From positions 1 to 64,000 of the forward strand of contig JAYKKR010000028.1 in assembly GCA_036971615.1 (NCBI GenBank): DNA of 64,000 bases. The letters are read 5' to 3'. The DNA comes from Amyloporia xantha. Lineage: Eukaryota > Basidiomycota > Agaricomycetes > Polyporales > Adustoporiaceae. The notes under the pieces were generated by a model, which did no database searches, had not been told where the DNA came from, and saw only the letters and a list, made by a program, of their open reading frames with translations. Positions 9,201-34,481 of this stretch are shown here, piece by piece. Both the position numbers and the translations under genes were made by a program. The first letter of the stretch is position 1; the number at the start of each line of letters is the position of its first letter.

Positions 9201-10084
9201 GCAATGACATCAGGAAAACAACCCGATGAGGAGGAAGAGCAAACACGAAAGAAAGCTCGGAAGTCAGAATGCTCGGTATGTGCCGTGAATCGGATAGCAT
9301 AGCTCATTCTCCACAAGGCTGATGGATTCGACTTACAGTCTCATAGCACTTTACCTGCTAGCGACGCTCCACATGTTGTTACTTCTCGATCTATCACATC
9401 CAGCCACTGGCAGCAGAATGGACGGTAGTACGGCCAGCTCGCTCCATGCGTTTTCAAAGCTGGACGCCGAATATCCCAGTCACAGTGCCAGTAGGATCAT
9501 CTGAGGAGACTCCGAAAGACTCACGCGCAGCAGCATTCATAACTCATGCGATAGTGGCGGATTCGCAGGCGGCTTCTCTGCATCTTGCTGCCCTCTCTAC
9601 TCCGCTACCTCCTCCTCCGATTACAGAGCAGAAAAGTGCACTATCGGGCTTGTCGCGTTACGCAACGCGTCTTCCACATCTTCACTGGCATCGACACACG
9701 TGCTCTTGAGATCAAGACCGACGAGGAATTCTTCCTCTTTATGGACATGCTTGGCTCGAGGGCCAATGGACGTCGTTTTCCATGACATCGCGGAAATGGG
9801 TCGCCGCAACCGCAGTGTACAACCAACGCCTTGAGAAGCTGAATAATTCCAAAAAGATATCTACTATAGCGAAGAATCCTCGGGCACTGATGGAGAAGCT
9901 TGGCGAAGTCGAGGCCATAATAATCAAGAAGATTAGTACTAATGACTATACATGTACGTCTTTTGCGCCGCGGCTGTTTATCTCGCCATCCGAAATGGTC
10001 TAGTACTTACCTGTCAATGTGGCACAGCCCAAAAAGGAACTGACACGTTCTGGCGAAAGCACTGTTCCCACACCATACAGTCAC
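6218..10084 (+). pseudogene. DDE-type transposase-like gene, broken and cut by the KDZ element
   Basis: Collinear plus-strand blocks form one large protein of a type seen in Agaricomycetes. An N-terminal zinc-ribbon-like part has CPQC near 6895 and CRQCQ near 7020, with FWQKWEHWQIP near 7090. Next come a block at 7340-7560, then SLDATFKSAGKAT (about 7640, first candidate Asp), EIVVADNCCHVR (about 7905-7945, second Asp), VVLDVYHLLMR (about 7977-8008), and DGSRIEGSHKGWNSIMR (about 8393-8443, candidate Glu). This layout suits an RNase-H-fold DDE nuclease. A further block runs from NTFWNSL (about 8608) through 9050, and more lies at 9580-9960. The last exon, GTDTFWRKHCSHTIQS, runs straight into the terminal inverted repeat at 10078. 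Frames change between blocks more often than plausible introns explain (for example near 8600), so it is a relic. I cannot name the exact superfamily (MULE-like or other), and I did not find its continuation after 29637. Confidence 0.5.
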
Positions 10085-10260
10085 TATAGCCTACTCTATA
10101 GGGAGAGATATGGGTGAAATTTTATTACTTAGTAAGGAGAGCGGACGTCGGCCGACGCCATCGCTATAGCCTGCAGTGCAGGGTCGGCCGAGAAAGGGTA
10201 TAATATAGCCTGTAGATACGGCGCGGCCGAGTGCGCCATATTTCCCTGAGTATATTCTCG
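10078..10260 (+). repeat. left terminal inverted repeat
   Basis: This matches the reverse complement of about 29460-29637 almost base for base. It includes TATAGCCTACTCTATAGGG, the stretch TTACTTAGTAAGGAGAGCGG and the GCCGAC-rich inner part. Visible differences are CAGTCAC versus CAGTCAT at the tip, a T4 versus T5 run near 10119, and GAGAAAGGG versus GAGAGGG near 10193. The tip carries the same TATAGCC heptamer that bounds the palindrome in each satellite unit. Confidence 0.9.
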
Positions 10261-10803
10261 CCTTCAAGTAGCGTCGGCCGAGAGGGTATAATATAGCCTT
10301 TAGATACGGCGCGGCCGAGTGCGCCATATTTCCGTAGTATATTCTCGCCTTCAAGTAGCGTCGGCCGAGAGGGTATAATATAGCCTGTAGACACGGCGCG
10401 GCCGAGTGCGCCATATTTCTGTGGTATATTCTCGCCTGCAAGTAGTGTCGGCCGAGAGGGTATAATATAGCCTTTAGACACGGCGCGGCCGAGTGCGCCA
10501 TATTTCCGTGGTATATTATCGCCTTCAAGTAGTGTCGGCCGAGAGGGTATAATATAGCCTGTAGACATGGCGCGGCCGAGTGCGCCATATTTCCGTGGTA
10601 TATTATCGCCTTCAAGTAGTGTCGGCCGAGAGGGTATAATATAGCCTGTAGACATGGCGCGGCCGAGTGCGCCATATTTCCGTGGTATATTATCGCCTTC
10701 CAGTAGCGTCGGCCGAGGGCTATAATATAGCCTTTAGACACGGCGCGGCCGAGTGCGCCATATTTCCGTGGTATATTATCGCCTTCAAGTAGCGTCGGCC
10801 GAT
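10174..10803 (+). repeat. left subterminal satellite array, 87-bp unit, about 7 copies
   Basis: The unit boundary CCTTCAAG/CCTGCAAG recurs at 10261, 10348 and 10435, giving a period of 87 bp. Each unit contains GTCGGCCGAGAGGG, TATAATATAGCC, GGCGCGGCCGAGTGCGCC and a GTATATTNTCGCC tail. Units differ by a few substitutions. The array is the reverse complement of the right-hand array. The open frame that runs through it is a by-product of the period (87 = 29 x 3) and not a gene. Confidence 0.95.
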
Positions 10804-11005
10804 GGTGGATGCAGTGGTATTCATATCGCGCATCATGGCGCGCCGCGCTTATGGGCCTGGTATGCCCACTGGGATGGTATTTTCATGGCGCGGTATCGGC
10901 GCCGCCAGGTCATGTGTTCGCGTATATTGGTAAAGCAACTCAATATTCTGTGACTACATTTTGTCCTTGATGCCAACGACATCGGAGTATATACTGTATA
11001 ACGAA

Positions 11006-12545
11006 TTATATCTCGCCATTCCACATCATGGCTTCAACCCCAGTGGTCCCGTCCTGCGGTGGCTTGGCTGTGAGCAAGGATTTGATGGGCTGGTGCAGCT
11101 TCAAGATTGCGTTGGCGGCGTCGATGTCCTCTTCTATACGTCGTAACCTCTCGCTCAGGGATTGCGCTTGAAGGAACATCAAGTTTTCTTCGCTTCCTTG
11201 AGAAAACCTTCTATTGTTTTCTTTAGCGAATGGCAAATTGCGAGCGCAGTGTCATACCGAATTTAATCTCGATGGCGTTCATGGCGCTATTGGGGGAGTG
11301 GCCTCTGCCATCATCAAAGTATGGATTCTCCAATTCTTTGCATATTTAAGTATGGTGAAAGGGTGAATTTCGCTGTACTTACTTGAGTCAATGATGTCCT
11401 CGTCGTGATCCAGAATGGGAGCGAGGGCGAAGGTACGAGGAGATCCTGGCCACGGTCTCTGAGCCGCTGACGGTGTGCCTCCAAGTCCTGGAGTGGTATC
11501 AGCATGACGATGAAGGCGATGGAGGGCTTTCACTTACCAGAGGACCGCGGGGTATGTTGTGCTCGTCCAACACCTCATTTATAATGTCAAGGTACTGTCT
11601 ATGAGTATTCAAACACAAAGGCAAGAGAAAGCGAGGCAAAATACCTGGCGATTGAGTTGGATGAGGCGCTCATCCGCCATGTCAACATCGCCATCTTGGC
11701 TATGCGCAAGGTCGTGATCAAGTGCGCCGTCCATCCCGCCGTCCACGCCGCCGTCACGCCGCCATCCACGACGCCATCCATAGGCGCGCCTCTATCTTCA
11801 ATAGTAGAGGAATGGAGTGTCAGTAGGAAATAGGTTTAAAAACATGAGTGTGGACATACCTGGGGATGGAGTGGCCGGGAGATCCAGCTGATCGCGGAGC
11901 TGGAGGACTGGAGACAGCGATGGCGACAAGTCGAGAGTGTGCACGATGAGGGACAGGCGACTCGAAGGTAGGCTGGGCGCTGTGCACTCGCTCTGGAGAT
12001 GCCTCCAGGTCAAGCTGTGGACGGTGCAACGGGGTGTTTACCTGCGATGGCGAAAGGTCCAGGGCGGATCTAAAGGTGAGGTCTGCATTCGCGATTGCGA
12101 GGTGAAATCCAACGGTTGTCTTGATAGCGAGGTATTCGGCGGTGAGGGCGAAATGTTGAGCGATGGACGGAAGAGATCTATATCTTGGGAAGATGCTGAC
12201 TGCATTGTGGGCCTACGTAGTTGAGGGGACGTTAATTGGGGAAGACGAGGTCCACACGTCTTTTTGAAGTAGGCGCGGACGGCGGTGGCGGCATATCGAG
12301 AGGAGTGCTACGTTGTGCAGATCCCCCTGAACGTTGGCAAGGTCAGGCGTTGGCGACATAGCAAAGCGAAAGTTGAGCGGCGGCGGGGATGGCGATGGCG
12401 ATGCGGACAAATCGCCAAGCGTACGCGCTGGTGGCAGAGTGCGTGAAGGCGAAGGCGAGGCGAAGACACCACATCCAGAATTGGGCGAGAAACATCCCCT
12501 CTGATGGGCGAGGAGTCGAAGTCCAGAGTTGGGCGAGGACATCCC
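11006..12545 (-). CDS. uncharacterised element-borne gene, coiled-coil C-terminus
   Basis: I do not recognise this protein. Minus-strand exons with plausible introns can be seen. A Pro/Ser-rich N-terminal part (12545-12213) and a 12029-11820 segment precede a Gly/Asp-rich exon ending DERLIQLNRQ (donor near 11645). The next exon is YLDIINEVLDEHNIPRGPL (about 11596-11540), joined through a roughly 50-bp intron to DLEAHRQRLRDRGQDL (about 11490-11440). The last exon ends near 11006 and encodes a predicted coiled coil (LQAQSLSERLRRIEEDIDAANA). Exon boundaries in the first half are uncertain, and the frame may be broken. Composition and the frequent TGGCG words match the neighbouring element genes, so I infer it belongs to the transposon. 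Confidence 0.4.
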
Positions 12546-12880
12546 CTCTGATGGGCGAGGACTCGAAGTCCAGGGTAGGGCGAGGGCATCACCTCTGATG
12601 GGCGAGGAGTCGAAGTCTAGTATTTGGCGGGCTGAGGGGAGTGGCGCAGGTTGGCGTGAGGATATCTACATGATGTGCTCACCTAGCTCGTCTGCGTGTT
12701 CCGACATGGTTGAAAGCAAGGCGGAAGGAATGCGGAAACGTGCCAAGTTCGTCTAGAGGCATCTAATATACCCATGAGCGCAACACGTGCGGTGCCGATC
12801 GAACGGGCGCGGATCTTTCCGCCAGGCGCCCGCCATCAACCAACGCGATGCACCGCGTGGGTCTGACCGTCTCTTCTTCT

Positions 12881-12912
12881 ACCACCACCACCACCACCAC
12901 CACCGCCATCAC
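12881..12912 (+). repeat. (CAC)n microsatellite
   Basis: About nine CAC/ACC triplets with an interrupting CGC lie 40-70 bp upstream of the ATG of the Zn2Cys6-like gene. They fall in its probable 5' untranslated region. Read in one frame they make a poly-His open frame, which I do not take as coding. Confidence 0.85.
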
Positions 12913-12951
12913 CACAGCTGTCAAATCCCATCTCGCTTTGCTTCTACCACC

Positions 12952-15722
12952 ATGTCCGCCTCCAGCATCAACAGCGACATCATCATCGCCGCAGTGCGCC
13001 TGGAAGAGGCGCTGAAGTTTCTGCCCGGGAAGCGCGGCGCGAAGTACAAGGTGTTTGAGAGCAACTTCTGGGAGGAAGTGGTAAGTGATTGTAACACAAT
13101 CAGGGTGAGCACTGTGGCGCTGAGTCTGTATAATGGCGCCTCTAGCAATCGATCTTCGCGAAGATCAAGGCGCTGGGAAAACACCGCGAGGGATTACAAG
13201 TGCCGCCGCTGTTGGTCAGCGCCATGGCGCAATACACGGTGGCGTCGCACAAGAAGCGCGGAGTGGACTTGACTGCCATCAAGGTTGACGACCCCGCCAT
13301 TCAAAGCCATGGCCTCTCCAAATACGTGTGGCATGGCGATTACATTGCCGAAGACCTCGGGGGCAACCTTTGGTGGAAAGGTGAGTGCACTGCGAAACCA
13401 TACGCCACGTCATCACTAACGGCTCAGCAGCGCTGTTGCGCAAGCGTACGAGCGAGGTTGCGCTGGGTGGGGATGGAGTTGCGGGGCCAAGTGGGGTGAC
13501 GGAGGAGGCAGAGGCAGGCGGGAGTCGAGGAAAGTGGCGAAGAAGGGGGCGGATGACGACGCAGGGCGGCCTCTAGAAGGTCAAAGGGAACGACGCCAGC
13601 GACGGACGGCGATGAGGGTGTCGTCATCGCTGCACCAGTAACGAAGAAGCCACGGCGCGGAGGGGCTGCAACGACGAAGCCGGGAACTAAGGCGGCATCC
13701 AAGGGCGGAGTCAAGACCACCACTGCGAAAGCGGCAGGAGAGGAAACGACGGCCGGCAAGTCTGAGCCGCGGATGAAGACGAAGGCGGGGCCATCGACGT
13801 CGAAGACGAATGAGAAGGCTTCATCGCGCAAGTCTCCTGCGGGAAAGGATGATGACGCCAGGCAGGAGACGCGGTCGAAGGCGAAGGCGGGATCGTCGAC
13901 GGGGAAGGGAAAGGGAAAGGCGAAGGCGTCGCCGGCGCCCGAAGATGACGACATGGACGAGGATGCTCAAGGCGAGAGTGAGGAGATGGAGGAGACGGAG
14001 ACATTTGTCTCGGTGAGTACGTTTACCAGATGCGCGGCAAGCGATGCTGACTGACATGCCTTCAGGCGATGCCTTGCGGAAATTGCGCCAAGGCCAAAGC
14101 TGAATGCAGGCTTGCTGTCGTGGACGGTCGGCGTTGCATGCGCTGCCTGAAGCGCAAGATAGGCTGCTCGATCGTGCCACACAACCTGAGCGGCAATCCG
14201 ATCAGGGGCCCCTACGGTGCAGTCCTGGCAAGCAAGTATCAGGACGTCATCAAGAACAGCCTCGCCGATGGCATCAAGCCTCCTCCACCGCTGGGATGAG
14301 GAGAGGAAGGAGTTTGTGGAGGATAGAGGCAAGCGGGGCAAAGGCGGCGAAGGGTTCGGAATCGAAGGCGAGCGATGAGATGGATGTGGATGAAGAAGAA
14401 GGGGAAAAGGACGATGGCAAGGCGGGTAGCGCGGATGTCGATGCGAAGGACGACGCGGAGGTGGACAGCCAGCTGCGGGTGGCGTCAGCGACTAGCGATG
14501 CCGCTGCGTCCCGCCCAATAGCGCCGCTCCCGAAGACATCGCTCAGCTCGATGAAGGCGTGGGTTGGGAAGCCACCTCCAGCGGTGGCTAAAGGGAAGGG
14601 CAAGGAGCGCGCGGACCGTCCTCTCCCAGAGGCAGAGGCCAGCAGCTCGAGCGATCGCTCGGCGCGGCTTGGGCTCAGGCCTGGCGAGGTAAAATGTAAG
14701 TCGGCTTCACTCTTTCTGGACGGCACGATCAACTGACCAAGTCAATGTGTGGCTGCCAGACCACCATGGCGAGTACCACCACTACGTAGGATTCTCCAAG
14801 GACCCCACCGCCATGGATGAAGGGCGCTATGCGCAGGACCAGGAGCTGTCTCATTTCCAGCCATTTACGGCGTACCTCACTGAGCAAGGCCACCAACTCG
14901 AGAAGAACATCAACATAATGACCGCGTGGCAAGACCGCTTCGGTAGCATGGTGCGACAACTTCCAGCAGTCACTGCTCGCCATCAACAGGCAGCAGGTCA
15001 ACATGACCGAGCGCATTGATAACGCCGAGGGCAGATTGGCGGCCTACTGGCAAGAGTGGAAGGCGCGGAGCAGACTCTGCAAGATGTGCGCTCTGAGGAC
15101 TCCGTCGCTCGCATCGCTGCGCTCGAGGAGATGGTCACGGTTCTGCAGGACGATCTGCGCGCAGCCAAGGAGAACATGGCGATGGATCGCCTTGGTGCCC
15201 AAGTCGCGAACATGGAGGTGCGCGTGGACACCTTGATGGACAACGTGCGCGATGAGAGCGAGAGGACGCGGCAGGCGATGGCGGGCATTGAGGCAGGTGA
15301 GGCGAGATTACAGGGGCTCATCGCGCAGTTTGAGTCAGTGCGCCGTGGCGTCGCTCGCCACAACGACGCGGAGGCCGAGACGCTATTGGACAAGGCGCAT
15401 CTGTCGGTGGAGCTCGTGCAGAAGGCGGAACAGGACGCGCAACGACGAGCGCAAGGCGAGGGCGATCATGGACAGCGCTCACGAGGGAGCCACTCCCATT
15501 TCGTGGTCTACCTCAGAGCGTGGCTCTGTAGGAGATCAATCGGACTTCACGAATGAAGCTCTGTCGACGCCCGCCGGTGGCTCCACACCTTCAATCAGGC
15601 GTTTCTCCTTGGAGATCGACGACGACGAGATGGCGAGCGTGGCCGCGGAGGAGCGAGAGCCTGATGCCGCAACATCACCCGTCACTGTCGACGACGCCGA
15701 GATGCCTCCCCCTTCGCCTTAG
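12952..15722 (+). CDS. Zn2Cys6-like coiled-coil protein, frameshifted in places
   Basis: The ATG at 12952 opens a clean exon (to 13080), a GT-AG intron, and exon 2 (13146-13381) ending DYIAEDLGGNLWWK, then a third exon. A long Lys/Ala/Ser-rich, DNA-binding-like linker follows (about 13600-14010). After an intron a six-cysteine cluster appears near 14069-14170: C-x2-C-x6-C-x9-C-x2-C-x6-C, the spacing of fungal Zn2Cys6 DNA-binding domains. Then come an acidic linker, a block at 14733-15000, a predicted long coiled coil (about 15090-15450), and an acidic C-terminus ending at 15722. Zn2Cys6 domains usually sit near the N-terminus; here the cluster is central. The frame changes near 13600, 14297, 15000 and 15450, so the copy is either damaged or carries sequencing indels. 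Role is unknown; binding to element DNA is an inference. Confidence 0.55.
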
Positions 15723-16156
15723 ATAATTCTTTTTGTAACTTTGCTGTACTTTCAAACGAATGCATTGTGTACACTCTCCAGCGACCAGTAAGATTGAGAC
15801 TGCAATGACGGCAACACCCTCGGCATCACAGTGCGCCACGGGGGCTTGCACAGGGAGCGGCACGCCATCGCCATCCTTCGCAGCGCTGAGTTCAATCATC
15901 GCCATTGAATTTAAATGCGAGGTAGTGTACATGAGAAATAGTATTCTAACGGCGACCATGCGCTTTAGTGGGTCGGGGCTGAGCTCCCCTACCTGTCTTG
16001 CGCAATGACCTACGAATGGCGGGGGCAGGCTCGCCCTGCTCTTCCTCGCCATCGCTATAAGTCTCTGCCAGAGCCCGCTTTGAGCGACCCGCCTTTTTCG
16101 CTTTTCACGAGGTTGGGGTGGTTTCTCTGCTTCCTCCTCCTCTTCCTCCTCTTCGC

Positions 16157-19100
16157 TCACGCGGTGACTTCGCTTTTCAACTTTTCCTCCTTAGCTTTTG
16201 TCTTCTGACGAGTGTGGGTGGCGACCTTCATGTCGTTGAGAGCACCCGTGATCGAGGACCCGCCTGCCGTTGGCAGTGCCTGAATATTGATCTCCTTTGC
16301 CTGCCGAGCTGTTTGGCGTGTCTTGCGCTTTGGCACAGGAAGTGAGGGAGAAGGACCACGATTGGCCTCGCCGTCGCTCTCGTCTTCACTGTCATGATTT
16401 TCACGGTCGGAGAAATGAACCTGTAGGCCCCTCATATCTCGAACGGGTGAGAGCTGATTCATCGCAATAGGTGGAGAGGAGGAGAAATCCATACTCCCGC
16501 GGCGGACAGTTGCGTCATTGAGCGCGATGGGGGAGGATGGCGGTGCACGCCCTGGCGCCATTGGCGAGGAAGGCGGTGCGCCGTCAATTGATGGCGGTCT
16601 CTCTTCTAGTTGTGGACGCGGTCTCATACCCAAGGCGCGCTTAGGTATGGATGGAAAGACCGATCTTCCCGTGGTCATTAGCGGCCTTGCTGGAGGCGGT
16701 TTTCCTGTGACTGGAAACGGAAGCGAATGTTTTTGCGTGCCTCGCAGAGGTTCCGGCAACGGCGAGCTGGATTGCTGAGCTACTTGGCCATTATGCGCGT
16801 CTCGCGATCGCCTTATCTTAGGGGATGTGAGGATTGGCGCGGCTTCCCTCGCCAATGCCGCTGGCGGAGTCCGGCGTACGACGCTCCTGTTCCGCCCGCA
16901 GGGTTTGCAAATGGCGAGGCTTGGGCGGAGTGGGGGAGGTGGACCCTTGTTGAGATTCCCAGTGGGCATCATGGGAGGGCGAGGTGATGGCTTCCCCTGT
17001 CTGGGAACGTGGGGCGGTGGTGGACCATATTTCAACGCCGGTGGTGGGGCCTCCAAAGGTGTTGGCTGCGCCGCGGCCGCAGTGCTACTGCGGGTGACAG
17101 AGCTACCTTCCATGGATGGCGCGTCGCCTTGCACAGATTGTGCCTGCTTCACCAGCGCGCACAACGATGATACATGCGGGTCGAGCCTCTGGGCAATCAC
17201 GGCGAAGGGTATGGCGCTCTCGCTGACATGGCGTGGAATGTCCGAAGGCGGGCGTCGGGATCCTGGAAGGCGAACTGTGCCGCCGTCAGATCGCGGCTTA
17301 TCATGGCGATCACGAGGAGCACTTGTTCAATCATGCCGACGTCCCCTGTCAGCCTGCCGGACTTGTTCAAATAAGGCTTCGAGTCGAGCCACTTCAGCAC
17401 TGGATCGAGCCCATGGGCGTGGCGATGAACCATATAGGACAAGTGTCGATGCGGGTTGTGCCAGGTCGCCCAGTCGGCGCCTTCCGGTGCCCGCTTTGTC
17501 GTCTTCAGCCCACTCTATCACTCGCAAGGTAAGCCTTAGTTTACGGAGAAAAATGAAGTTACTACCATCATGCGAGGCAGCGCGTCCACGATCACGCGAA
17601 ATTCTGGCGATGGCGATGCCGCCTCCAGCCATTGCTGACGCCGTCTACGTGAAAGCAGCGCCCAATTGGGCGGCGCCTTTTGCATCTTCGCTGTCATCAT
17701 CTTCGTCGGAAGTTGACCCGACGTCGATGTCCAGATTGAAAGTCTCGTGCTCGGTGTCGTCGTCCACGGCGCTATCGTCATCGGTGCTGAGACGTTGCAC
17801 GCCTTTGCCCTTGCCGCTTTTCACCGCCTTCTTTTTCTTCTTTTTGGGGCCCGCCTTGCCTTTAGCGCCTTTGGGTGCTCTCGCCGCCTCATACACAGCA
17901 GGGATTAGCTCCGAATCCTCGTCCCCCCTGCTCTTCAGGTATGCCTTGAAGCGGAACGCGCACTGCCCCTTGTTTGCCTCTTGCGCCGCTCTCCAATGAT
18001 GCAGGACCGCGATGATGTCCTTCCTGACCATATGCGACGGATCGTCGGGTGGAAGCCGTCTGGCACCATTCCTGCTTCTATAAATTCAGCCCCACGCACT
18101 TTGAGCGCGCGCCAAGGGCACTTCTCTTTGGCGCTTCCTGCAGCCCGTTCTATGGCGCCATCAGCGTCTTTGTGAGCGCCGTGTGGATCAAGACTTACGG
18201 TAGTGAGTAGACAGAAAGTCTCTGATCATGGATTTCATCACAGGCAGGGATGGCGCATCCTCGCCATCCATTGGCGGTATCAACGGGAGACCGCCATCGT
18301 CGACCAGCAGCTCTCGCCGTGTGCCGCGAGACGTTCCCTCTCCGTTGTCAACGCTCGCCTCGCGATTGCTATCAAATGCCTCTGTGCTGTACTTGGCCCA
18401 TTTGACCATCGTATCTGCGTGCCAATCGTCCACCTTGGAAAAGGCTTTTCCATTCTCCATCTCATCGTTGAAGTCGTGTCTGTGAAAAGCGGTCAGAGCG
18501 GTGAGAGGCGATACAAATTGCCTGCTCACTCCTGAATGACGACTCTCCCATCAGGAGATTTGTAGCTACTCAACGTAAAGATCCTGACACCATGGCGTCG
18601 GTATGCCTCTCGAGCGTATTTCCTCAGAAACGGAATGAGCTCCTTGTCCGCTTTCCTGCGTCGCCATCAGCTGCCGTTAACTTAGCACAAAGGTCGCGCT
18701 CCCACTCACGCCGAAGATCCAGCCTTGACCTCTTTGGCGTCATTGTTGAACGCATCCGCCTTCATCTGGTAGTCCGCCTTTGCGTCCTCATCCAGTTTGC
18801 CCCAATACTCGCTCACTACCTTGGTGTATGCGCCTATCTCCTGGTGGAGCCAGACCTCGTCCTCCCGTCCTTTCGTTGGCCACCCTTAGCAGCTCTGTTT
18901 TGTGCTCCTCTTGATACATATCCCTTGCTGACCGTTTTTCGTTCCAGGGATGGGCACCTGGGGTTCTACGATTCGGTAGTGGTTGCTGAAATAGGTCCCC
19001 AGGGACTATAGAAATGTGTGAATGACGAAGATGACAATGCCATGAACTGTTGGTTTGACCTTTTTCAGGCCATTTTTATCTGTCAGCTCTGCGAATTGTT

Positions 19101-19221
19101 CCATGAGGATATTGACAGCCTCATCGACAATGGGTGCCCTCGCAGTGCCTTTGGTGTTGCGCCATCGCTCTATTTGCTCTGGGATCTTGTCTAGATATGC
19201 CTGCAGGATAGCTATTCCCAT
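16157..19221 (-). CDS. uncharacterised element-borne nuclear-type protein, weak HMG-like part
   Basis: Minus-strand exons run from an ATG at 19221 (MGIAILQAYLDKIPEQ) to a stop at 16157. A block near 18860-18720 (YWGKLDEDAKADYQMKADAF) faintly recalls the last helices of an HMG box. It is followed, after an intron, by DKELIPFLRKYAREAYRRHGV. Then come an acidic segment (18530-18190), a Lys-rich stretch that could be a nuclear signal (KKKKKKAVKSGKGK, near 17850), a strongly acidic stretch, and a Pro-rich 347-residue segment (17200-16157) with basic tail. I recognise no catalytic domain. Some joins need frame changes I could not resolve by splicing, so part may be decayed. It is convergent with the Zn2Cys6-like gene and divergent from the dioxygenase gene 450 bp away. 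Confidence 0.45.
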
Positions 19222-19668
19222 GGCGAGGACAACAAGCAGACCGAGATGCTCTCAGGATGACAGACACTTGGGCACTCCCAACTGAACATTTGCCCAGACG
19301 TGTCTGACCTCCGGTGATACTTTCGTCCTGTTCTAACCCCGCTGATCTCTCTTACACTGCAAGCGTCCATGTCGGGGCAGACCCGACCGGCATCCCTCCG
19401 GCGGAGCGCGGCATCTCCCAGGCCGAGGCCCCGGCGTAATGGCGCCGTGGTCGAGAATCGCGGTCCACATGCCAATGACGCGCCTCGATCACCGGATCAC
19501 GCCTTGCCGATCGGCTGGGCCTGATCTTGCCGGCGCTTGCTCAACGATGTGATCGACCAAACAAGTGTGCAAAGCTAATGGACATGCTGTTGCAGCATGG
19601 TCAGTAGATGGCAGATTGAGCAATAATGCGAGATGGGCGTGTATCTCCATCCATCTCGTCTGTAAGCC

Positions 19669-20929
19669 ATGATAGCGGGCAGCGGCTTGGAGCTCAGCGA
19701 CACATTGGCAGCTTGCATGCGCGATATGTTTCAGTTTTGGCTACACAAGCTTCGGAATGCAGCCGGACAACCGAGAAACCCACAGCCTCCCACACATATC
19801 CGCGCCGATATCGTCGTCGAATGCAGCCAGATCGCGCACCAGCTCGCAAAGGCATATATCAAACCTGGTGTGTACTCTTGGATGCTGTGGGCATCTACTC
19901 ATTCTGCGCTGACCGGAAAGTAGTGCGCTTATCCTGGGACATTGACCGGTATTCTGATGCTATAGGCGTGGGCAACACCGGACAGAACGTGAATCTGGAG
20001 GCGCAGCTCAAGACTAAATGGCCGCCTCTCCTCCCAGACACCACCGTGGTTCTAGATGAACCCTGCGTGCTCCTCGACCAGCACTCGCGCATCCTAGCAT
20101 GGGTGCTTCCGGGCGTCCTTCATGTGAATCGCCAGGTGGGCTCATTCATCTTCCGCCATGCACCGTGCTCACTACGCTGTGTCGGCAGAGGGAGATACAA
20201 TTGGCGACGGCCCACCTATCAACACAACTGATGCGTAAAGCCCCGGGGGTCAGTTGGCGAAACCATGAAGCATATTTCCGCGATCGATCAACCTGCACCA
20301 CACCTCCGGGGACTGTCAATCTGTCTCCAGGATGGCACGCGCTGGGTCACACGGTACGCTGACGATCCGTTAACTCTGATGACTGGCGAATGACGGGCGC
20401 ATACATCCAGGGCCCATTGGACCCAATGCTGCCTTCGGCGAGCTTACGCGATAAAGATGGCCAGAGTGGATGGCGATGGTTGACCGCCATCCGTGAATCA
20501 GCCGCCATCCTATCCGGCATGATGTCCATCATGCATCCCGACCTGTATGCTGCGGGACATACATGCATGGAGTCGCTTCTTGGCGAAGTGGAGTATCCCG
20601 CAATAGTAAGCGCTTGGTCTTCGATCTTCAATGGCGTTCAGGTCATCAGCAATCGCGAGACGCCGCTACACCGCGATAAAAACTCGCGCAAGCAGTGGTT
20701 CGACCTTCTCACCACGGTAGGGAGCTACGGCGCATTGGAAATGCAGCTGGATGGTCCAAATATCGCTATAGACTACAAGGCGGGTAGCGTAGTTGCGCTT
20801 TGCGGAAAGCTTCTGCGCCATGGCGTTCAGAGATGCGATGGAGAGCGCATATGCTACGCTTATTTTATGAGGGACTCAGTGCATGCCGCGATGAATGTCA
20901 AGGCACCGCACTGGATGGAGTGGACTTAA
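19669..20929 (+). CDS. TET/JBP-type 2-oxoglutarate/Fe(II) DNA dioxygenase
   Basis: Four exons splice in frame: 19669-19867, 19924-20135, 20189-20353 and 20411-20929, with introns of 56, 53 and 57 bp, all GT-AG. The product is 364 aa. The catalytic fold is in the last exon. An HxD iron motif lies in ETPLHRDKNSRKQWFDLL (His 279, Asp 281), a distal iron ligand in LLRHGV (His 329), and a likely 2-oxoglutarate-binding Arg in GERICYAYFMR (Arg 338). Upstream, VLLDQHSRILAWVLPGVL (about residues 112-129) is a segment typical of fungal TET/JBP proteins encoded near KDZ transposons. Such enzymes oxidise 5-methylcytosine in DNA stepwise; that activity here is inferred. All metal ligands are present and no lesion is seen, unlike the neighbouring transposase. 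An in-frame stop just before 19669 fixes this start unless an upstream exon exists. It is convergent with the KDZ transposase, 74 bp apart. Confidence 0.9.
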
Positions 20930-21002
20930 GGTTGCATACACAGATCTGTATTTGTGTCAAGTCTATGTTTGTGTATCTAGTAGGGTCGTGAATGGCGAAC
21001 CA

Positions 21003-24000
21003 TCACACACATGTATTAAAGCGAGAAGCGGCATGCTCCGCCATGCGCGTCCACAGCGAGACCTGACGGCGCGCATAGCATACATGACCTGGAGGCCCAT
21101 AGAGGCGGGAGCGCCATAGGTTCGCCTTGTTATGGAAGCTCGCCTGCGTCCACGCCATCTCTGCCGTGACCATGACAAACTCCTCCGCCCACCTATCCTT
21201 ACGTGATTTTGCACGGAACCAGTTGACGCGATGCACTGCCGCGCTGCAGTCAGCATTGCGGGCATTGGACGGACCACAAGCGCACTCACACTCCGTCAAC
21301 CAGTTGGACTGCGTTGAATCGCCCTCGATGTCTACGGTCCATATCCAGGACAACTTGTCCTGCCGTGTTCCTCGGATGGAGTTGTCCAGCAGCGCGGTGA
21401 TCGCCTTGAGGTCATCATGTTGAATGGCACGGAAGCGCGCTTTGATGGCGTCAGTCGGATTCAGAGCGAGGATGGCGTGGCGGCTTTGACTGTAAATGCG
21501 CACGTTCTCTAGCACCGCCCTCTGCGTGGAGATGACCTCGTCCCAGGACCGGAGCTTTTGGCGCTGGCTCTTTGCATGACGAACCGCCGTACGAAACAGC
21601 ACTGACTTGTAACCAATGGCGAGCGAATCTGATGAAGGGCGTCATTGGCCTGCCCAATGCGCAAACTCAACTCCTCCGAAGCGATGTCCTCTAAACCGCT
21701 GGCCACGACAACATCGTAGCCAAGCTGCGATGGAAGCGAAATGATGGCGCTCTCAGGCTGGATTCCAGAATCGATCTCACCGGTGTAAATCTCATCAAGA
21801 GGATTGACATCTTCCTCCAGTGCATCCCATTCAGACCCGTCATAAGCCTCTGAGGCGCCATCCCCATCGGGCTCGGCCACAAGTGGAATGTACGAAGCGG
21901 CTTTGGACTCGAATGTCACTATACGCTTCTGAAGGCGCTGACGGCGCTCCTCCAGCGCAAGGCGGTCCGCCACCAGCGGATGCCGGCCCATCTTCCGTTT
22001 CAGTTGGCTAATGACCAACCTAAGACCTGTTGTGAGCTTGGCACCCGATGTTCAATGACGCTACCTACTGCAATTCCTGAATCTTCATGCCCGTGGCTAT
22101 CCATGCAGCTACGCCCTGATGGCGATGTTGCGATGTTTCCGTTTGCGTTAGTTGAAGTTGGATCTGCATCCGGGTGGGTGCTGCGCCACATCATTAATCA
22201 TGGCCGTACCCTCTAGTGTGCACTCTCACCCTTTCTCATCTGCACGTCAAAGACATCCATCGCGCTGATTTTAGCGTCACGCATGGCGAGCGCCTCGCCC
22301 TCAGCGGCTCGCCACTCTCCTAGCTGCTCCTCCGTGCTCGATCTCTCAATGAACTCCAACACATCCCCGCTCTCCGTGGCGCCGGCTTTGGCCTTTCGCC
22401 ATTTCCTAACAAGGGTGTTCGCTGTTGAAGCCACAGTCAATCAACCTCTCCACCAATGTCAAGGTTGGCCCACCCATCCCGGTCAACTTCTTCCAATTGG
22501 AATCATTCATGTGATCGTCAATGACTTCCTTTCTATGTGCTGTGGTCATGCCGCGTGTGCTACCCGAAATGAGATTCAACGGCGCCCAAAGGGTTTCAAT
22601 CACTTCGCCATCAATCTGACCAGCACCGGGAATGAAGTTGGGTGAGTAGCGAGGAAAGCATGTGTCTTGATGGCCGTGGACATGAAACAGGCCTATTCCG
22701 CGCCGTATCTCCACGTTCGGCGGCATGTGCAAATACTCACTCTCCCCAAACCGCTTCATGAGATTGATGCCGTATTGACACATGATGTCGTACATCACCA
22801 GCAGCACCTGGATACCCGCCATGGTGGCGAGGACCTCGCTCAGCGCGTAATCCATGTTCATCTGTCTGATGGCGGGTGTAAGTGAACAAAGGAAATAGCA
22901 AACCACTTACCTCTCGCCTTTCTGGAAATCAACCACCGCATGCGGCATGAAAAACCCATGGCGCGCACAGGCCGCGGCGCCAATCCCCGTGGCTTCAAGG
23001 TTATGGCGATCTGCATTCGCCTGGTTGACGGCGCGATGATCGTGACAGAAGGATTTCTACATAGGCTATGAGCGTCCAACGGTTCATCCACTAGGAGTCG
23101 ATCACGGACCTCTTTATGCTCGATGGCGACAGCGAGATGCTTCTTGTAGGTGTCGTCGCCCACCATGAAAGCGTCGCCATCGCTGAGAATTACGTCGTCC
23201 TCTGGGCGACGCATCTTGAATGCTCCGCGCTAAAGTTGCCGTCCATTACGATGCTCCTCATGTACTTCCATCTGCTATCGCGTTACACATGCCGCCCAAA
23301 ACGTCTTACATGGCTCACTGTACGGGGTCATCACGCCATCCGGAAGCGAGATTCACGCCAGGCTTGGGACATGCCGGGCACCCCAAAGCGAGGCCACCAG
23401 CTGGTATCGCGTTGGAGGCGCCATGACCATATCCATGCCATTTGCGGTATTTGAGGTTTCGCCATTGGCGGGACACCCGCAGAAGCTCTCTGTAACGATT
23501 CTAGCCCCTTCTCAACGGCGGAAACAGCTTCATATGCACATAGCGGCTTACCTGCACTGAATGCGGGAACGCGGAGTTTGTGACACGTCGAAGCTTGCTG
23601 TAGTAATTCATCCCCGAGGTTTTGCACTCCTTGTTGGTAAGCAAAAAATCATCCAACACCCGAAATGTGAACGCAGTGCGTGGCCGCTTGGTGCTCCCAG
23701 GATAGAGGCCCATGTCCAATAGTTGCAGGTCTCGAGTGAGCCTGTTATCGCACCGACACCACACAACGTCCAGGCTATGCATCCCCGTAACATCTACAAT
23801 GGTCAAAGTGTCAAATGCGTAGTGACTTCGCGGCGCCGTCGAGTCCGCTTTGATTGGCTCTTCATCCTCTTCATTGTCCCCGGCGTCACTCACGTCGTCG
23901 TCTTCGCCATCGCTATCAGCATCCCCATCCAGCGGCGTGATCGGGGACTCCGCATCCACACATGGTTCGCCATCATGCCCGAGATGCATCCGCACCCCAA

Positions 24001-24563
24001 CCTCCCGAAGCCACGCCGGTTCGAAGAACCCATCCGCCCACTTCTCCACCCGATGCAGCGGCATGCGGCGATGCGTCAACTGCAGGCAGTCCTCGCAATA
24101 CACGGGGCGCCCAAAGCATTCCAAGCAGCGCCAATCGCCATGCGCATCAGCGCATTTGCTGCATCGTCTCTCACCTGGTGGAGCTTCTAGCTCGATGATG
24201 TGGCTTAGATACACATCGCGAAGTGGAAGCCATTCGCGCATAAAGTCGTTCTGCGACTGCCCCGCCTTCGGCGTTGACATTGAGCGACCCAAATAAGGCG
24301 ACGGTACTCACCTTGTGCAGACTCTTCATCGGCATCACATCGTCAAACACCACATGCTCCTGCACGGGTTCGGAATATGCGTCATGAGACGCGGCTTTAG
24401 AGGGGATTTCGACGGCGATCTTGATGCGCTTGTCGGCACATGCGCACGCGGTAGCGGTGCTTCCTTGGGAACGTATGTGACGGCGCCTCTTGCAGTTCGC
24501 CGTTCTTCGCGGCCTTACGAACACCGCATCGCCACTGACATGTTGCTTCTTCGTGCGGGCCAT
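21003..24563 (-). CDS. KDZ transposase with CxC2-type cysteine cluster
   Basis: The ATG at 24563 opens a basic N-terminus, then an intron and SQNDFMREWLPLRDVYL. A cysteine cluster follows (C-x2-C, then LECFGRPVYCEDC, then H/H) as in the CxC2 clusters attached to KDZ transposases. Later exons give RYRELLRVSRQWRNLKY, VMDGNF (first Asp, about 23240), YDIMCQ (second Asp, about 22788), HVHGHQDTCF, and DGEVIETLWAPLN (Glu, about 22600). STRGMT and NDSNWKK complete the RNase-H-fold core. A coiled C-terminal half ends at 21003. Several 40-55-bp introns are evident. Two single-base lesions break the frame, near 23218 (just after the first Asp motif) and near 21624; each looks like one T lost from a T run. 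Catalytic residues are intact. It is either recently inactivated or mis-sequenced. Confidence 0.9.
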
Positions 24564-24838
24564 GGCCGTATCACTGCGGACAGATGACAATTGGCTTATT
24601 GTGATCCATGACAGCTTCCTTTTCATACTGAATGGCGATCTCTCACGCCCCTGCCTCCTGATCCCTTATCAACAACGGATCATATCCACGCGATCACCTT
24701 CAGATACTTGGCCGATGCTTATCTCCGACGGATCTTCGCCATGACCTTCCCTCGAGGCGATCACCCGATCCACCATCGACTCCTCAAATTCGCCTTGCAT
24801 TTCGCCTTGGCCTACCAACCCATTCACCCCACGGCGCA

Positions 24839-25593
24839 ATGGCTCTCGCCTTGAAGAATCGCGAACAGTCCCTCTCCAGCCTCATCGCTATCAACCGCCG
24901 ACTGATCTCATACTATGCCTGGCGCTGCGAGCAGGCGCTAGCGACCATCATGTCTGTCGCCGCCGGTAGAGACAAGGTGGCTGGCTTCGACATCACCTTG
25001 GCGCGGTGGGAGATTGGCCTCCGCATGGAAATGGTAAGCTTCGCCTTCCCCAACGTGTCTGCTCTGACGCTCAGCAGGAAGCCCTTCGCGACTGCCTTGG
25101 CCGCCTCGCCCTCGTCGGCGTCACCGACGTCGAGCTCCCCGACGTCGTCCGCAAGATCAGCGACGCCACCGTCTTTGGGGCCGTCCCACGGATCCACGTC
25201 CTCGAGATACAGCCGTTCACGCCGCTCGCCTCGCCGCCATCCTTGCAGCTACAGAAGCTGCACACAGAAACCGAGCCCGCGTGGTGGACTTGGCCAGACG
25301 ACCCTCCCAGTCACCTTCCAGCATGGTGGAAGTATCCACTGCATGACAGAGTAAGTCGCCACCCCGCTCCCACCTTTTCAACACATTCATTCACATAAAT
25401 TGCATCGATTGCCGCATAGCGTCGCGGAGACACCTATCAAGTCAACTACCGCGATATGAGAGCGGTCAGCCATCGATTGGATGACGTCGAACGCCTGGTC
25501 ACCCGCTTCGCCGAGAGCCGCCATCGCGATGCCGGCGACCTCACAAGGATGTTGGACGCCTTCAAAGAGGTGCTGTTGCCAGATGAGGAGTGA
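24839..25593 (+). CDS. uncharacterised 214-aa element-borne protein
   Basis: Three exons (24839-25033, 25075-25350, 25420-25593) join in frame to 214 residues. The first intron is only 41 bp. The protein starts MALALKNREQSLSSLIAI, has a Trp/Pro-rich middle (AWWTWPDDPPSHLPAWW), and ends in a probable helix with heptad-like hydrophobics (VSHRLDDVERLVTRFAE). I recognise no domain, signal peptide or membrane segment. It is divergent from the KDZ transposase, with 275 bp between their starts, so the two could share a promoter. It is undamaged while the transposase carries two lesions. Belonging to the element rests on position and on shared TGGCG-rich composition. Confidence 0.6.
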
Positions 25594-25739
25594 GACCGGG
25601 TCTCTGCGCGCCATGTCGTAGGTGGATCTCGCCGTCGTCTGTATGTATTTCTTGTCGCTGCCTTTATGAGCACGAGTGCATGACGTCCCCAGCGTCTCCC
25701 ATTTGTTCAATGGACCTTGTATTTAAGCGGCTGAATCAC

Positions 25740-26060
25740 ATTACCATCCAATCATGTGGATGGCGATGCGATTCAGGCGCTTAACTTCGAGGTAGCATTG
25801 ACGAATGGCCGAGCTCGAGGACGCCAGCAAATCATGCTCTTTGGACATCGCGCCATGTCAAAGGTGGGTGTTTTCAGGTGGCGTATGTATCCGTTTCGTC
25901 TGCGCGGTGAGTGCATAAATGCATGACGTCCTTCTGCGCCAGCCAATTCTTCAATGGCCTTGGTATTCAAGCAGCTGAATCGGATGGCCATCCAACAATG
26001 GTTGGATGGCGATTCGATTCAGATGCTTTGATCCAGGGTAGCATTGAAGAATCATGCAGG
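25740..26060 (+). repeat. diverged direct repeats inside the element
   Basis: A segment carrying GGATGGCGAT.CGATTC and then GGTAGCATTGA.GAAT.. and CGCCAGCA.ATCA occurs near 25760-25835 and again near 26003-26075, about 245 bp apart. Related copies recur near 26855 and 27190 with CGATTCCTCTGG and CAGC(A)AGGATGAA. Four diverged copies therefore lie between the last gene and the right array. Confidence 0.7.
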
Positions 26061-26164
26061 TCGAGAACGCCAGCACATCACGCCGGCTGCGCACCATGTG
26101 CCTCGCCTGCGCGCGCCATGCACGAGCGCCATCGGATGGCGCATATTGCCGCTGAACGAGGCGG

Positions 26165-26376
26165 CTTCATCTATGACCTTCGGAGCCACAGGTATGCGGC
26201 TCTGAAGAGCATAGATGAAGGCGCCCTGTCTGGCGAGCCATAGCGCCATCTCCCAACAGTGAGCATGAGCGCGCCATGCACGGCGCCATCGGATGGCGCA
26301 TATAGCCGCTGAACGAGGCCCCTTCTTCTATGACCTTCGGAGCCACAGGTAGCGGCTCTGAAGAGCATAGATGAAG
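26165..26376 (+). repeat. two long hairpins (26165-26220, 26322-26376)
   Basis: Each is an inverted repeat with arms of about 23 nt, beginning CTTCATCTATG (CTTCTTCTATG in the second) and ending CATAGATGAAG, with inner GGAGCC/GGCTCT and a loop of 8-10 nt (ACAGGTATGC in the first). Arms differ at only a few positions. A related, less perfect hairpin lies at about 26482-26540. Each sits in a roughly 150-bp direct repeat flanked by GGCGCCATCGGATGGCGC, itself nearly palindromic. Confidence 0.85.
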
Positions 26377-26607
26377 GCGCCCTGTCTGGCGAGCCATAGC
26401 GCCATCTCCCAACAGTGAGCATAAAGCGCGCCATGCACGGCGCCATCAGATGGCGCCCGTCGCCGCCGGACAGCGCAACTTCAGTCTGTGGCCCTCAGAG
26501 CCACAGGTATGCGGCTCTGAAGACCATAGATGAAGGCGCCCTGTCAGGCGAGCCATAGCGCCATCTCCCAACAGCGAGCATGAGCGCGCATGCACTTCGC
26601 CATCAGA

Positions 26608-27275
26608 TGGCGCCCGTCGCCGCCGGACAAGGCCCATTTGACTTATGTCCTTCTGAGCCACAGGTATGCGGCTCGGAGGAACATAAGTCAAGTCTTCCTG
26701 TCTGGAGTCTGACTCATTCATGCAAGGCGCTGTTGGATTAACCCATTAACTCCTTGCTCTCTACGTTCACCAGTGGAATCGAGTTGCCCTCAGCGCCATG
26801 AGTACTCCGGATGCAGCTGATTTGTCCATCAGCATCAGGGGTACTCTCAAAACGTGGACGGCGATTCGATTCCTCTGGCTGACCCAGGGCAGCAAGGATG
26901 AAATGGCCCAGTCCAACAGCGCCAGCACATCATAACACCTGCTGGCGCCCGTCGCCGCCGGACAAGGCCCATTTGACTTATGTCCTTCTGAGCCACAGGT
27001 ATGCGGCTCGGAGGAACATAAGTCAAGTCTTCCTGTCTGGAGTCTGACTCATTCATGCAAGGCGCTGTTGGATAAACCCATTAACTCCTTGCTCTCTACG
27101 TTCACCAGTGGAATCGAGTTGCCTTCCGCGCCATGAGTACTCCGGATGCAGCTGATTTGTCCATCAGCATCAGGGTACTCTCAAAACGTGGACGGTGATT
27201 CGATTCCTCTGGGTGACCCAGGGTAGCAAGGATGAAATGGCCCCGTCCAACAGCGCCAGCACATCATAACACCTG
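26608..27275 (+). repeat. 335-bp tandem duplication, each copy with a hairpin
   Basis: The block starting GGCGCCCGTCGCCGCCGGAC is repeated directly with an offset of 335 bp and few differences. Each copy contains a hairpin (26638-26691 and 26973-27026) with arms TTGACTTATGTCC..GAGCC and GGCTCGGAGGAACATAAGTCAA and the same ACAGGTATGC loop as the hairpins at 26.2 kb. Loop conservation with changed arms is notable. Confidence 0.9.
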
Positions 27276-27384
27276 CGTGCCATACGCCTCACAATGTGGC
27301 AGGCAAGGTACGTGGCGCATGGTTGCATAGCGCGTCTGGACATGGTGGCGCCATGATTCCATAGCGCATGCTGCCGCTGGAGAT

Positions 27385-27660
27385 GGCCATTGGATCTGTG
27401 TCCCGCAGAGGGTCCAGACAGCTGGATCCTTTGAAGGACACATATCAGATGGCCCAGTCTCTGCGCGTGTCTTGGGTTGGGCGAGAATATGTATTAGATG
27501 CTGGTAGGTGGGTAGATCCAGTTCAAATGACCTTAGCGTACATGAAATATGTATAGCGGTAGAATATAGCGCGATGCTGCCGCTTGAGATGGCCATTGGA
27601 TCTGTGTCCCACAAAGGGTCCACACAGCTGGATCCTTTGAAGGACACATGTAAGATGGCC
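27385..27660 (+). repeat. two further hairpins in a 206-bp direct repeat
   Basis: The hairpins at 27385-27454 and 27591-27660 have outer arms GGCCATTGGATCTGTGTCC and GGACACAT.T.AGATGGCC and inner arms GGTCCA/TGGATCC around a short loop. The two copies are direct repeats 206 bp apart. Arm sequence is unrelated to the 26.2-kb hairpins, so this is a second family. Confidence 0.85.
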
Positions 27661-27906
27661 CTGTCTCTGCGCGTGTCTTGGGTGGGGTGTATGGAGCCGT
27701 CGGAAATGGCCAATCAGTCCTTGCGCTTTGAATTGTAGTCACACCACTGACCTGACCACACACGAAACGTCGTGATGAATGACAGATTGCAAAGCCTAAT
27801 GGATGGCGAGGCATTATTATTATTATACATACAGCATGAGATTTATTGAAATGCATATAATTAAAGCGTAGAAAAGGAAACAATAGGGCGGAATATACTA
27901 CTTCAA

Positions 27907-29530
27907 GGCGAGAATATACCACGATAATATGGCGCAGTCGGCCGCGCCGTGTCTACAGGCTATATTATAGCCCTCGGCCGACACTACTTGCAGGCGAGAA
28001 TATACCACGATAATATGGCGCAGTCGGCCGCGCCGTGTCTACAGGCTATATTATAGCCCTCGGCCGACACTACTTGCAGGCGAGAATATACCACGATAAT
28101 ATGGCGCAGTCGGCCGCGCCGTGTCTACAGGCTATATTATAGCCCTCGGCCGACACTACTTGCAGGCGAGAATATACCACGATAATATGGCGCAGTCGGC
28201 CGCGCCGTGTCTACAGGCTATATTATAGCCCTCGGCCGACACTACTTCAAGGCGAGAATATACCACGATAATATGGCGCAGTCGGCCGCGCCGTGTCTAC
28301 AGGCTATATTATAGCCCTCGGACGACACTACTTGCAGGCGAGAATATACCACAGAAATATGGCGCAGTCGGCCGCGCCGTATCTAAAGGCTATATTATAG
28401 CCCTCGGCCGACACTACTTCAAGGCGAGAATATACCACGATAATATGGCGCAGTCGGCCGCGCCGTGTCTACAGGCTATATTATAGCCCTCGGCCGACAC
28501 TACTTCAAGGCGAGAATATACCACGATAATATGGCGCAGTCGGCCGCGCCGTGTCTACAGGCTATATTATAGCCCTCGGCCGACACTACTTGCAGGCGAG
28601 AATATACCACAGAAATATGGCGCAGTCGGCCGCGCCGTGTCTACAGGCTATATTATAGCCCTCGGCCGACACTACTTCAAGGCGAGAATATACCACAGAA
28701 ATATGGCGCAGTCGGCCGCGCCGTGTCTACAGGCTATATTATAGCCCTCGGCCGACACTACTTCCAGGCGAGAATATACCACGATAATATGGCGCAGTCG
28801 GCCGCGCCGTGTCTACAGGCTATATTATAGCCCTCGGCCGACACTACTTGCAGGCGAGAATATACCACAGAAATATGGCGCAGTCGGCCGCGCCGTATCT
28901 AAAGGCTATATTATAGCCCTCGGCCGACACTACTTCAAGGCGAGAATATACCACGATAATATGGCGCAGTCGGCCGCGCCGTGTCTACAGGCTATATTAT
29001 AGCCCTCGGCCGACACTACTTGCAGGCGAGAATATACCACAGAAATATGGCGCAGTCGGCCGCGCCGTATCTAAAGGCTATATTATAGCCCTCGGCCGAC
29101 ACTACTTCAAGGCGAGAATATACCACGATAATATGGCGCAGTCGGTCGCGCCGTGTCTACAGGCTATATTATAGCCCTCGGCCGACACTACTTGCAGGCG
29201 AGAATATACCACAGAAATATGGCGCAGTCGGCCGCGCCGTGTCTACAGGCTATATTATAGCCCTCGGCCGACACTACTTGAAGGCGAGAATATACCGCAG
29301 AAATATGGCGCCCTCGGCCGCGCCGTATCTAAAGGCTATATTATAGCCCTCGGCCGACACTACTTCAAGGCGAGAATAGACCACGATAATATGGCGCACT
29401 CGGCCGCGCCGTATCTAAAGGCTATATTATAGCCCTGGGCCGACACTACTTGAAGGCGAGAATATACTACGGAAATATGGCGCACTCGGCCGCGCCGTAT
29501 CTACAGGCTATATTATACCCTCTCGGCCGA
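27907..29530 (-). repeat. right subterminal satellite array, 86-bp unit, about 19 copies
   Basis: The unit starts GGCGAGAATATACCAC at 27907 and again at 27993, giving a period of 86 bp. About 19 units reach the right terminal repeat. Each unit holds ATGGCGCAGTCGGCCGCGCC, the perfect palindrome GGCTATATTATAGCC, and CTCGGCCGAC. Variants alternate (GATAATATGG versus AGAAATATGG, GTGTCTACAG versus GTATCTAAAG), which suggests unequal exchange. The array is the inverted counterpart of the shorter left array. Confidence 0.95.
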
Positions 29531-29637
29531 CCCTGCACTGCAGGCTATAGCGATGGCGTCGGCCGACGTCCGCTCTCCTTACTAAGTAATAAAAATTTCA
29601 CCCATATCTCTCCCTATAGAGTAGGCTATAATGACTG
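29460..29637 (-). repeat. right terminal inverted repeat
   Basis: Reverse complement of the left terminal repeat, ending TATAGAGTAGGCTATAATGACTG at 29615-29637 (only the last part is given here as the tip). A short second match to the inner repeat, GCTCTCCTTAC, lies just outside at 29643, so the true end may be more complex. Confidence 0.85.
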
Positions 29638-29712
29638 AATGGGCTCTCCTTACGAGGATGAACACTTAAATTAACGATAAATGTTCCTCTTGCTTTTCGG
29701 TTTCCCTACGAG

Positions 29713-33905: not shown

Positions 33906-33910
33906 CTATC
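33906..33910 (+). repeat. target-site duplication of the Ty3 element (left copy)
   Basis: CTATC directly precedes the left LTR and directly follows the right LTR (40773-40777). A 5-bp duplication is the usual product of Ty3/gypsy integration, and it fixes the ends of the element. Confidence 0.97.
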
Positions 33911-34479: not shown

Positions 34480-34481
34480 TT

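Follow-up and report, generated by a model that had tools for sequence, protein, structure and literature searches.

The presence of dozens of TET genes in fungal genomes has been puzzling. Iyer and colleagues reportedly described in 2014 a linkage of TET genes with KDZ transposases, as well as further genes that encode a divergent HMG domain. Complete Kyakuja elements that carry a TET gene and are flanked by 7-bp target-site duplications have already been published (Kojima 2025, PMC12730594), and 8-bp duplications are given for Zisupton and the described Dileera family in that paper. Here we describe a large element from the fungus Amyloporia xantha, located within the first 64 kb of contig C21 (the whole stretch of DNA that was analysed, hereafter the window) of a 46.8-Mb genome assembled in 60 contigs. 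Judged by its predicted transposase, it is a DNA transposon of the KDZ superfamily. We read it as a recently amplified, Kyakuja-like KDZ transposon that forms one six-gene unit, in which the encoded TET/JBP dioxygenase would serve the accessibility of the element and the products of two further genes, A and C, may act on subterminal sites; we give this reading a probability of about 0.7.

Kyakuja (PMC12730594) shares with the present element a KDZ-type transposase, a TET/JBP dioxygenase of the CcTET (AG) type and 7-bp duplications. By the published numbering, the predicted enzyme has Asp at the position of CcTET Asp337, as in Kyakuja, and Ser at that of Gly331, where Gly or Ser is reported. 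The structurally characterized CcTET of Coprinopsis cinerea (PDB 7vpn, 7w5p, 8jkk) belongs to the same family as this enzyme. In contrast, the L. bicolor families of Kyakuja have 5'-CA..TG-3' termini and no terminal inverted repeats (PMC12730594), whereas the present element has the termini CACACC...GGGCTC and long inverted repeats made of 86-bp arrays. Because of these two differences, we call it Kyakuja-like within the KDZ superfamily and do not file it as Kyakuja. The 7-bp duplications of Kyakuja are found at other copies of the element, not at the window copy, and the accessible text on Kyakuja describes no Zn2Cys6 gene, HMG gene or F-like gene. According to the accessible part of PMC12810828, KDZ1 of Cryptococcus neoformans resembles the element in its KDZ domain, CxC-type cluster and terminal inverted repeats, and differs in its length of about 11 kb, its 241-bp repeats and its 8-bp duplications; a TET gene is unmentioned there. 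No description of a six-gene unit or of TCGGCC arrays was found in the accessible portions of the literature searched. What is new here is the presence of ~86-bp subterminal repeats in all three families of the element, with TCGGCC in every whole unit, together with a motif at a fixed spacing from the five ends examined. The earlier note had proposed a bounded unit with this many genes as the novelty: the single mobile unit stands, whereas TET-carrying transposons are a known kind, with Kyakuja published and extra HMG-type genes reportedly described by 2014, and the novelty is lower than was estimated then.

The existence of one bounded, mobile multi-gene unit is strongly supported. The left ("A") end, beginning at 10069, reads CACACCATACAGTCACTATAGCC, with CACACCATACAGTC as its outermost letters; the right ("B") end, at 29646, reads GAGCCCATTCAGTCATTATAGCC on the opposite strand, its outermost forward-strand letters being GACTGAATGGGCTC. 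The inverted repeats comprise 188 nt at 91% identity plus the longer arrays, which are complementary between the two sides at ~90%. Matching terminal repeats, claimed earlier, were borne out, with each true end 9 bp farther out than first proposed. A whole-genome search with a 34-nt outer-end pattern, allowing up to three mismatches, gave 95 forward and 84 reverse matches (179 places) vs. 0 and 0 for the reversed control, which excludes chance as the source of the terminal repeats. A host-gene cluster with chance repeats was ruled out, since the ends recur 179 times and duplications flank most of the copies examined.

Two full copies, at C21:213.9-232.7 kb and C34:1545.2-1563.5 kb, align end to end and collinearly with the window element at ~99% identity, their larger length differences sitting in the arrays, and are flanked by the exact 7-bp duplications AAAGCAT and CCACTCT, respectively. 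Among 30 further ends, 11 same-contig pairs matched at 7/7 positions and one at 6/7, always joining an A end with a B end, and the six leftover ends had no partner inside that set; the duplication was also exact in 14 of 19 further pairs. Altogether, 16 other units of 17.7-20.2 kb carry exact 7-bp duplications (five from the 30-end set, nine from the 19 pairs and the two fetched copies). Two findings that would have spoken against the unit, terminal repeats never recurring at this spacing and cargo genes at single-copy loci without the repeats, were both looked for and not encountered, genes A, C and F being multi-copy genome-wide. Pairs with matching target sites that span 21.8-76 kb are also present and probably owe their length to insertions or nested elements. 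Four shorter units (4.5-6.1 kb), likewise flanked by exact duplications, appear to be non-autonomous relatives. A 3.35-kb unit at C1:3938228-3941582 has two A-type ends, and its flanks are mutual inverted copies over the stretch seen.

Further copies of the 5 kb that adjoin the window element on its left lie on contig C14, where the sequence runs unbroken through CTGTTCC into GTCGTCTC at two places (C14:651556 and C14:628159). At C14:657.57-676.53 kb, an element copy lies between two CTGTTCC, with the same outer sequence as at the empty sites. A single genome holds both the filled and the empty site for a copy of the element. A comparison of the window copy with two others over 15.6 kb revealed 30, 24 and 52 private substitutions and 36, 16 and 25 private indels. 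Decay resembling repeat-induced point mutation was considered and rejected: private substitutions are rare, 16/30, 10/24 and 17/52 of them being C>T or G>A, hence there was no strong hypermutation. Private indels are about as common as private substitutions. So many small indels point to assembly error, and the reading frames of a single copy are therefore not a guide to its intactness. C14 also carries a second, different insertion at C14:630583-647970 with a KDZ match (C14:642507), other ends and a 7-bp duplication AGCATCG, whose uninterrupted site is present at window positions 7641-7647. The window segment 5014-10068 has undergone a recent segmental duplication, with further copies on C14 at ~99% and some copies carrying KDZ insertions.

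Six gene models were built for the element, in the order B(-), A(+), C(-), TET(+), KDZ(-) and F(+) (Table 1), and the earlier count of four further genes beside KDZ and TET was correct. The predicted transposase matches the KDZ domain PF18758 (E 8.2e-48, positions 19-217 of 217) and the KDZ-associated cluster CxC2 (PF18803, E 7.7e-26); four pattern matches to its core among viral contigs included no relative. The TET model aligns with the CcTet structures 7vpn/8jkk (E 3e-31), and in the alignment to 8jkk the HxD motif is matched, as are the distal H and, nine positions after it, the R, in agreement with the AG type. A protein search with the TET model returned 24 proteins, with Wolfiporia, Scleroderma, Suillus, Coniophora and Sparassis (mushroom-forming fungi) as named sources. 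The window and C34 copies are identical at 349/349 TET positions (stop included); in the full copy designated C21b, the frame of this gene is disturbed by one inserted base and a 2-base deletion. In both families 1 and 2, gene A has the Zn2Cys6 spacing C-x2-C-x6-C-x5-16-C-x2-C-x5-9-C; in the window element, this cluster is followed by an apparent coiled coil, as judged by eye. Three genes had been called unknown; B, C and F are indeed present, and C turned out to hold a divergent, sub-threshold HMG-like stretch, the frame of which is disturbed by a one-base insertion private to the window copy (at 18848). An open reading frame in the possible 5' region of gene B had no Pfam match, gene F matched no Pfam family, and the fold prediction for an F exon was poor, with a predicted local distance difference test (pLDDT) score of 44.

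Table 1. Features of the element and its flanks in the window (coordinates are window positions)
Feature	Position	Strand	Details
Whole element	10069..29646	.	19,578 bp; ends set by the target-site duplications of other copies; collinear with the copies at C21:213.9 kb and C34:1545 kb at ~99%
Left flanking 7-mer CTGTTCC	10062..10068	+	Unlike right 7-mer; flank common to C14 filled site
Left terminal repeat (A end)	10069..10805	+	Tandem array 10183-10802, 7.1 units x 87 bp
Motif GGACGTCGGCCGACG	10143..10157	+	Palindromic core; 74 bp inside left end
Gene B, partial model	11006..11734	-	5' part uncertain, may reach ~12.7 kb; family-2 homologue by tblastn
Gene A, 718-amino-acid model	12952..15722	+	Conserved N-terminal region, basic/acidic linker, Zn2Cys6-spaced cluster, apparent coiled coil
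C-x2-C-x6-C-x9-C-x2-C-x6-C cluster of gene A	14075..14167	+	Pattern search
Gene C, 824-amino-acid model	16157..19221	-	Divergent HMG-like stretch ~18710-19005
TET/JBP dioxygenase (gene D), 348-amino-acid model	19717..20929	+	PF12851, E 1.4e-15; N terminus uncertain
KDZ transposase (gene E), 1004-amino-acid model	21003..24563	-	CxC2 cluster; one-base indels disturb frame in window copy
Gene F, 213-amino-acid model	24839..25593	+	Homologues by tblastn
Non-coding tandem repeats, 157 bp and ~335 bp	26111..27690	.	Between gene F and right array; almost the same sequence in family 2
Right terminal repeat (B end)	27811..29646	-	Tandem array 27897-29531, 19 units x 86 bp
Motif GGACGTCGGCCGACG	29557..29571	-	75 bp inside right end
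Right flanking 7-mer TCCTTAC	29647..29653	+	Pairs with A end of the copy at C21:124.4 kb

Within this genome, the gene set is conserved beyond the family of the window element (family 1). In family 2 (C1:1236.8-1254.7 kb), tblastn finds homologues of all six genes, arranged and oriented as in family 1; its ends are similar, and its target-site duplication is CTGGCCG. In family 3 (C25), tblastn identified A, C, TET, KDZ and, weakly, F in the same order. The proportions of nonsynonymous (pN) and synonymous (pS) differences between families 1 and 2, calculated by the Nei-Gojobori approach on aligned exons, give rough ratios, as silent sites are near saturation: pN/pS was 0.138/0.673 for TET, 0.112/0.542 for KDZ, 0.29/0.706 for C, 0.196/0.514 for F, 0.37/0.625 for A and 0.34/0.677 for the last exon of B (58 codons). 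For every one of the six genes, pooled amino-acid change is lower than silent change. Nucleotide identity between the two families is ~50-75% over most of the length, with patches of 91-99% over ~22.6-23.4 kb (the transposase core) and 88-100% over 25.6-27.5 kb (window positions). The synonymous proportion is 0-0.13 in three KDZ core exons vs. 0.38-0.81 in the remaining KDZ exons; together with the high-identity patches, this indicates a recent exchange between families 1 and 2 that would have included the transposase core.

Among the gene-A matches listed, 73 of 93 have C and/or TET nearby and seven lack any of C, TET and F. The commonest class in family 1 comprises matches with C, TET and F nearby in the expected direction (37 of 53 listed), and TET is near all 13 family-3 matches listed. 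Of the 27 listed in family 2, seven have all of C, TET and F, and 11 have F alone at a distance of 1.2-1.7 kb; the latter look like copies with internal deletions. Family-2 pairs of A and F without a listed C or TET between them occur at C39:90141-137192, C16:356244-508348 and C24:355589-386746, four of those on C39 being spaced by ~15.6 kb, like a tandem duplication.

In family 1, and on the left side of family 3, the subterminal arrays repeat every 86-87 bp; in family 2 they appear by eye to have the same spacing. TCGGCC or its complement is present in 26/26, 14/14 and 3/3 whole repeat units of families 1, 2 and 3, respectively. It is the sole hexamer found in every unit of all three families, where 0.004 would be expected under independence, an assumption that shared descent violates; CTACAG occurs in at least half of the units in each family. 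The density of TCGGCC is 18-37 per kb in the arrays, as it would be for any repeated hexamer, and 0.3-0.5 per kb inside the element, where 5-8 sites were seen vs. 11-14 expected from dinucleotides. The second cis element, GGACGTCGGCCGACG, lies 74-75 bp inside every end examined, five in total: two each from families 1 and 2 and one from family 3, the last placed by its likeness to the B end. The outer part of this family-3 end differs widely by eye, yet the motif is retained. Exact matches to GGACGTCGGCCGACG were found at 177 places in the genome vs. one for the control, and eight of the nine places listed on contig C1 are ends already known.

Zn2Cys6 proteins as a class read CGG triplets. The KDZ transposase would act on the ends and move the element, and the predicted TET enzyme would oxidise 5-methylcytosine laid by the host on the element, keeping its genes and ends accessible. 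The Zn2Cys6-like product of gene A, perhaps with the HMG-like product of gene C, may bind the arrays at their TCGGCC sites as well as the end-proximal motif, and this binding might either assemble the ends for transposition or bring TET there. The arrays could serve as a binding platform in the manner of maize Spm TnpA or of the plant VANDAL anti-silencing proteins, which work alike in that an element-encoded DNA-binding protein, repeated subterminal sites and relief of silencing are involved; they differ in that the proteins are not known to be related to those here and those systems are not known to carry a methylcytosine oxidase. The sequence-specific VANDAL proteins are cited in PMC12730594. 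A putative anti-silencing function, as proposed in the earlier note, gains plausibility from the residues of the TET model and from the presence of TCGGCC arrays in an element that encodes a Zn2Cys6-like protein.

Several observations weigh against this reading, in which the roles of the proteins are predicted from sequence. Gene A scores E 0.5 and 11 bits with Pfam Zn_clus (cut-off 21), the Zn2Cys6 call being made from cysteine spacing, and in family 3 the cysteine cluster, read by eye, is split between two frames. The family-2 exon of gene C falls below the threshold of PF09011 HMG_box_2 (E 0.0034, 18.5 bits, cut-off 22.4), its fold prediction is poor (pLDDT 59), and a PDB profile search with gene C placed histone H2B first (E 1.5e-4), with the HMG protein Nhp6A at E 0.06; the HMG-like label is based on that sub-threshold match and on the divergent HMG domain reportedly described by Iyer and colleagues in 2014. 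Homologues of A and C were absent among the roughly 8000 candidates covered by each of the two protein-database searches, a weak result. In family 3, gene B was not found by tblastn, the conservation of A, C and F is weak, with TET and KDZ aligning best, the array consists of three whole units seen on one side, and no 86-bp array was found in the fetched right part, the right end of this family not being identified. The sharing of TCGGCC could be inherited along with the arrays, and the palindrome CGGCCG, at 20-22 per kb in the window arrays vs. 1.0-1.4 in family 2, is mostly lost in the latter. Target-site duplication fails in five of the 19 further pairs. The window copy itself has none (CTGTTCC / TCCTTAC), in contrast to most other copies examined, and its KDZ frame contains five one-base insertions lacking in both other copies.

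These last two points concern the window copy, which is very probably the product of an exchange between two copies, or an assembly chimera at a repeat, and not of one insertion. On the left, its flank agrees at 98.9% across 2 kb with the one beside the filled C14 copy, an alignment that takes in 0.1 kb of element sequence; on the right, its 7-mer has its counterpart at the A end of the copy at C21:124.4 kb. The two flanks match two different insertions, thus the halves of the copy seem to be derived from both. A comparable case is provided by neighbouring inverted copies at C34:2221-2255 kb and C34:2266-2284 kb with exchanged flanking 7-mers (GGCGGAC/GTAATGA and GTCCGCC/TCATTAC), the exact pattern expected from inversion of the 11 kb between them, or from a wrong assembly join, and the one-base indels likewise point to uncorrected assembly errors in repeats. 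However, a simple inversion with the copy at C21:95.8-124.4 kb predicts GGAACAG at the left end of that copy, where GTATCCT is seen instead, therefore a simple exchange between these two copies does not account for the pattern. This question leaves the element family itself untouched. The one-base indels in the transposase frame look like assembly errors, and A, B, C, E and F each differ between the window copy and one or more of the others in ways that shift the reading frame. The gene content given in the earlier note holds in that KDZ, TET and the Zn2Cys6-like protein are present, with TET open in the window; the transposase frame of the window copy, disturbed by one-base insertions, does not show an intact gene.

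Of the alternatives to the functional reading, the strongest, to which we give somewhat less than an even chance, is that A and C are transposition accessories for synapsis or end recognition in a 19-kb element and that TET acts diffusely over the genome, not targeted to the element. A transposase complex could likewise use the subterminal arrays, and the tie of TET to A or C here is one of linkage. Oxidised methylcytosine is reported also at retrotransposons in C. cinerea and L. bicolor, and Kojima speculates on oxidation that is not target-specific (PMC12730594). On the other side, the long co-maintenance of TET, A and C would make more sense if the copy that encodes TET profits from it, although this is not decisive. 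The most specific form of the anti-silencing reading is self-addressed demethylation, whereby A, with C, would read the arrays and the end motif, recruit the element's own TET and erase silencing marks at ends and promoters, as a module kept across at least three families; we consider it possible but doubtful. If true, it would represent a natural, sequence-guided TET, that is, a guided methylcytosine oxidase. A bounded unit with conserved partners and cis sites leads to a prediction of which partner should bind DNA, at which site, and where oxidation should occur, which turns "TET linked to transposons" into a testable question of binding and methylation.

It is improbable that the cargo besides KDZ and TET consists of passengers without a role for the element. 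F and B have no known function, and A is the fastest-changing of the six genes in pN, but the excess of silent over amino-acid change extends to all six, gene order and orientation are conserved, and A is most often accompanied by C, TET and F among the family-1 matches listed. A composite formed by accretion of unrelated elements or genes into a KDZ-TET element at this place, for which the probable nested insertions elsewhere in the genome could be invoked, is highly improbable and was rejected for the gene set, given two other copies collinear end to end and the layout retained in the diverged family 2.

Outside the element, an open frame with a SUN-domain (Sad1/UNC) match lies within window positions 29647-30832 and starts at a distance of ~0.4 kb from the element's right end. 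Further downstream, a Ty3/Gypsy-type retrotransposon with a chromodomain is located at 33910-40192, and a 2.1-kb stretch at its start recurs, whole or in part, in 38 further long matches at 89-98% identity.

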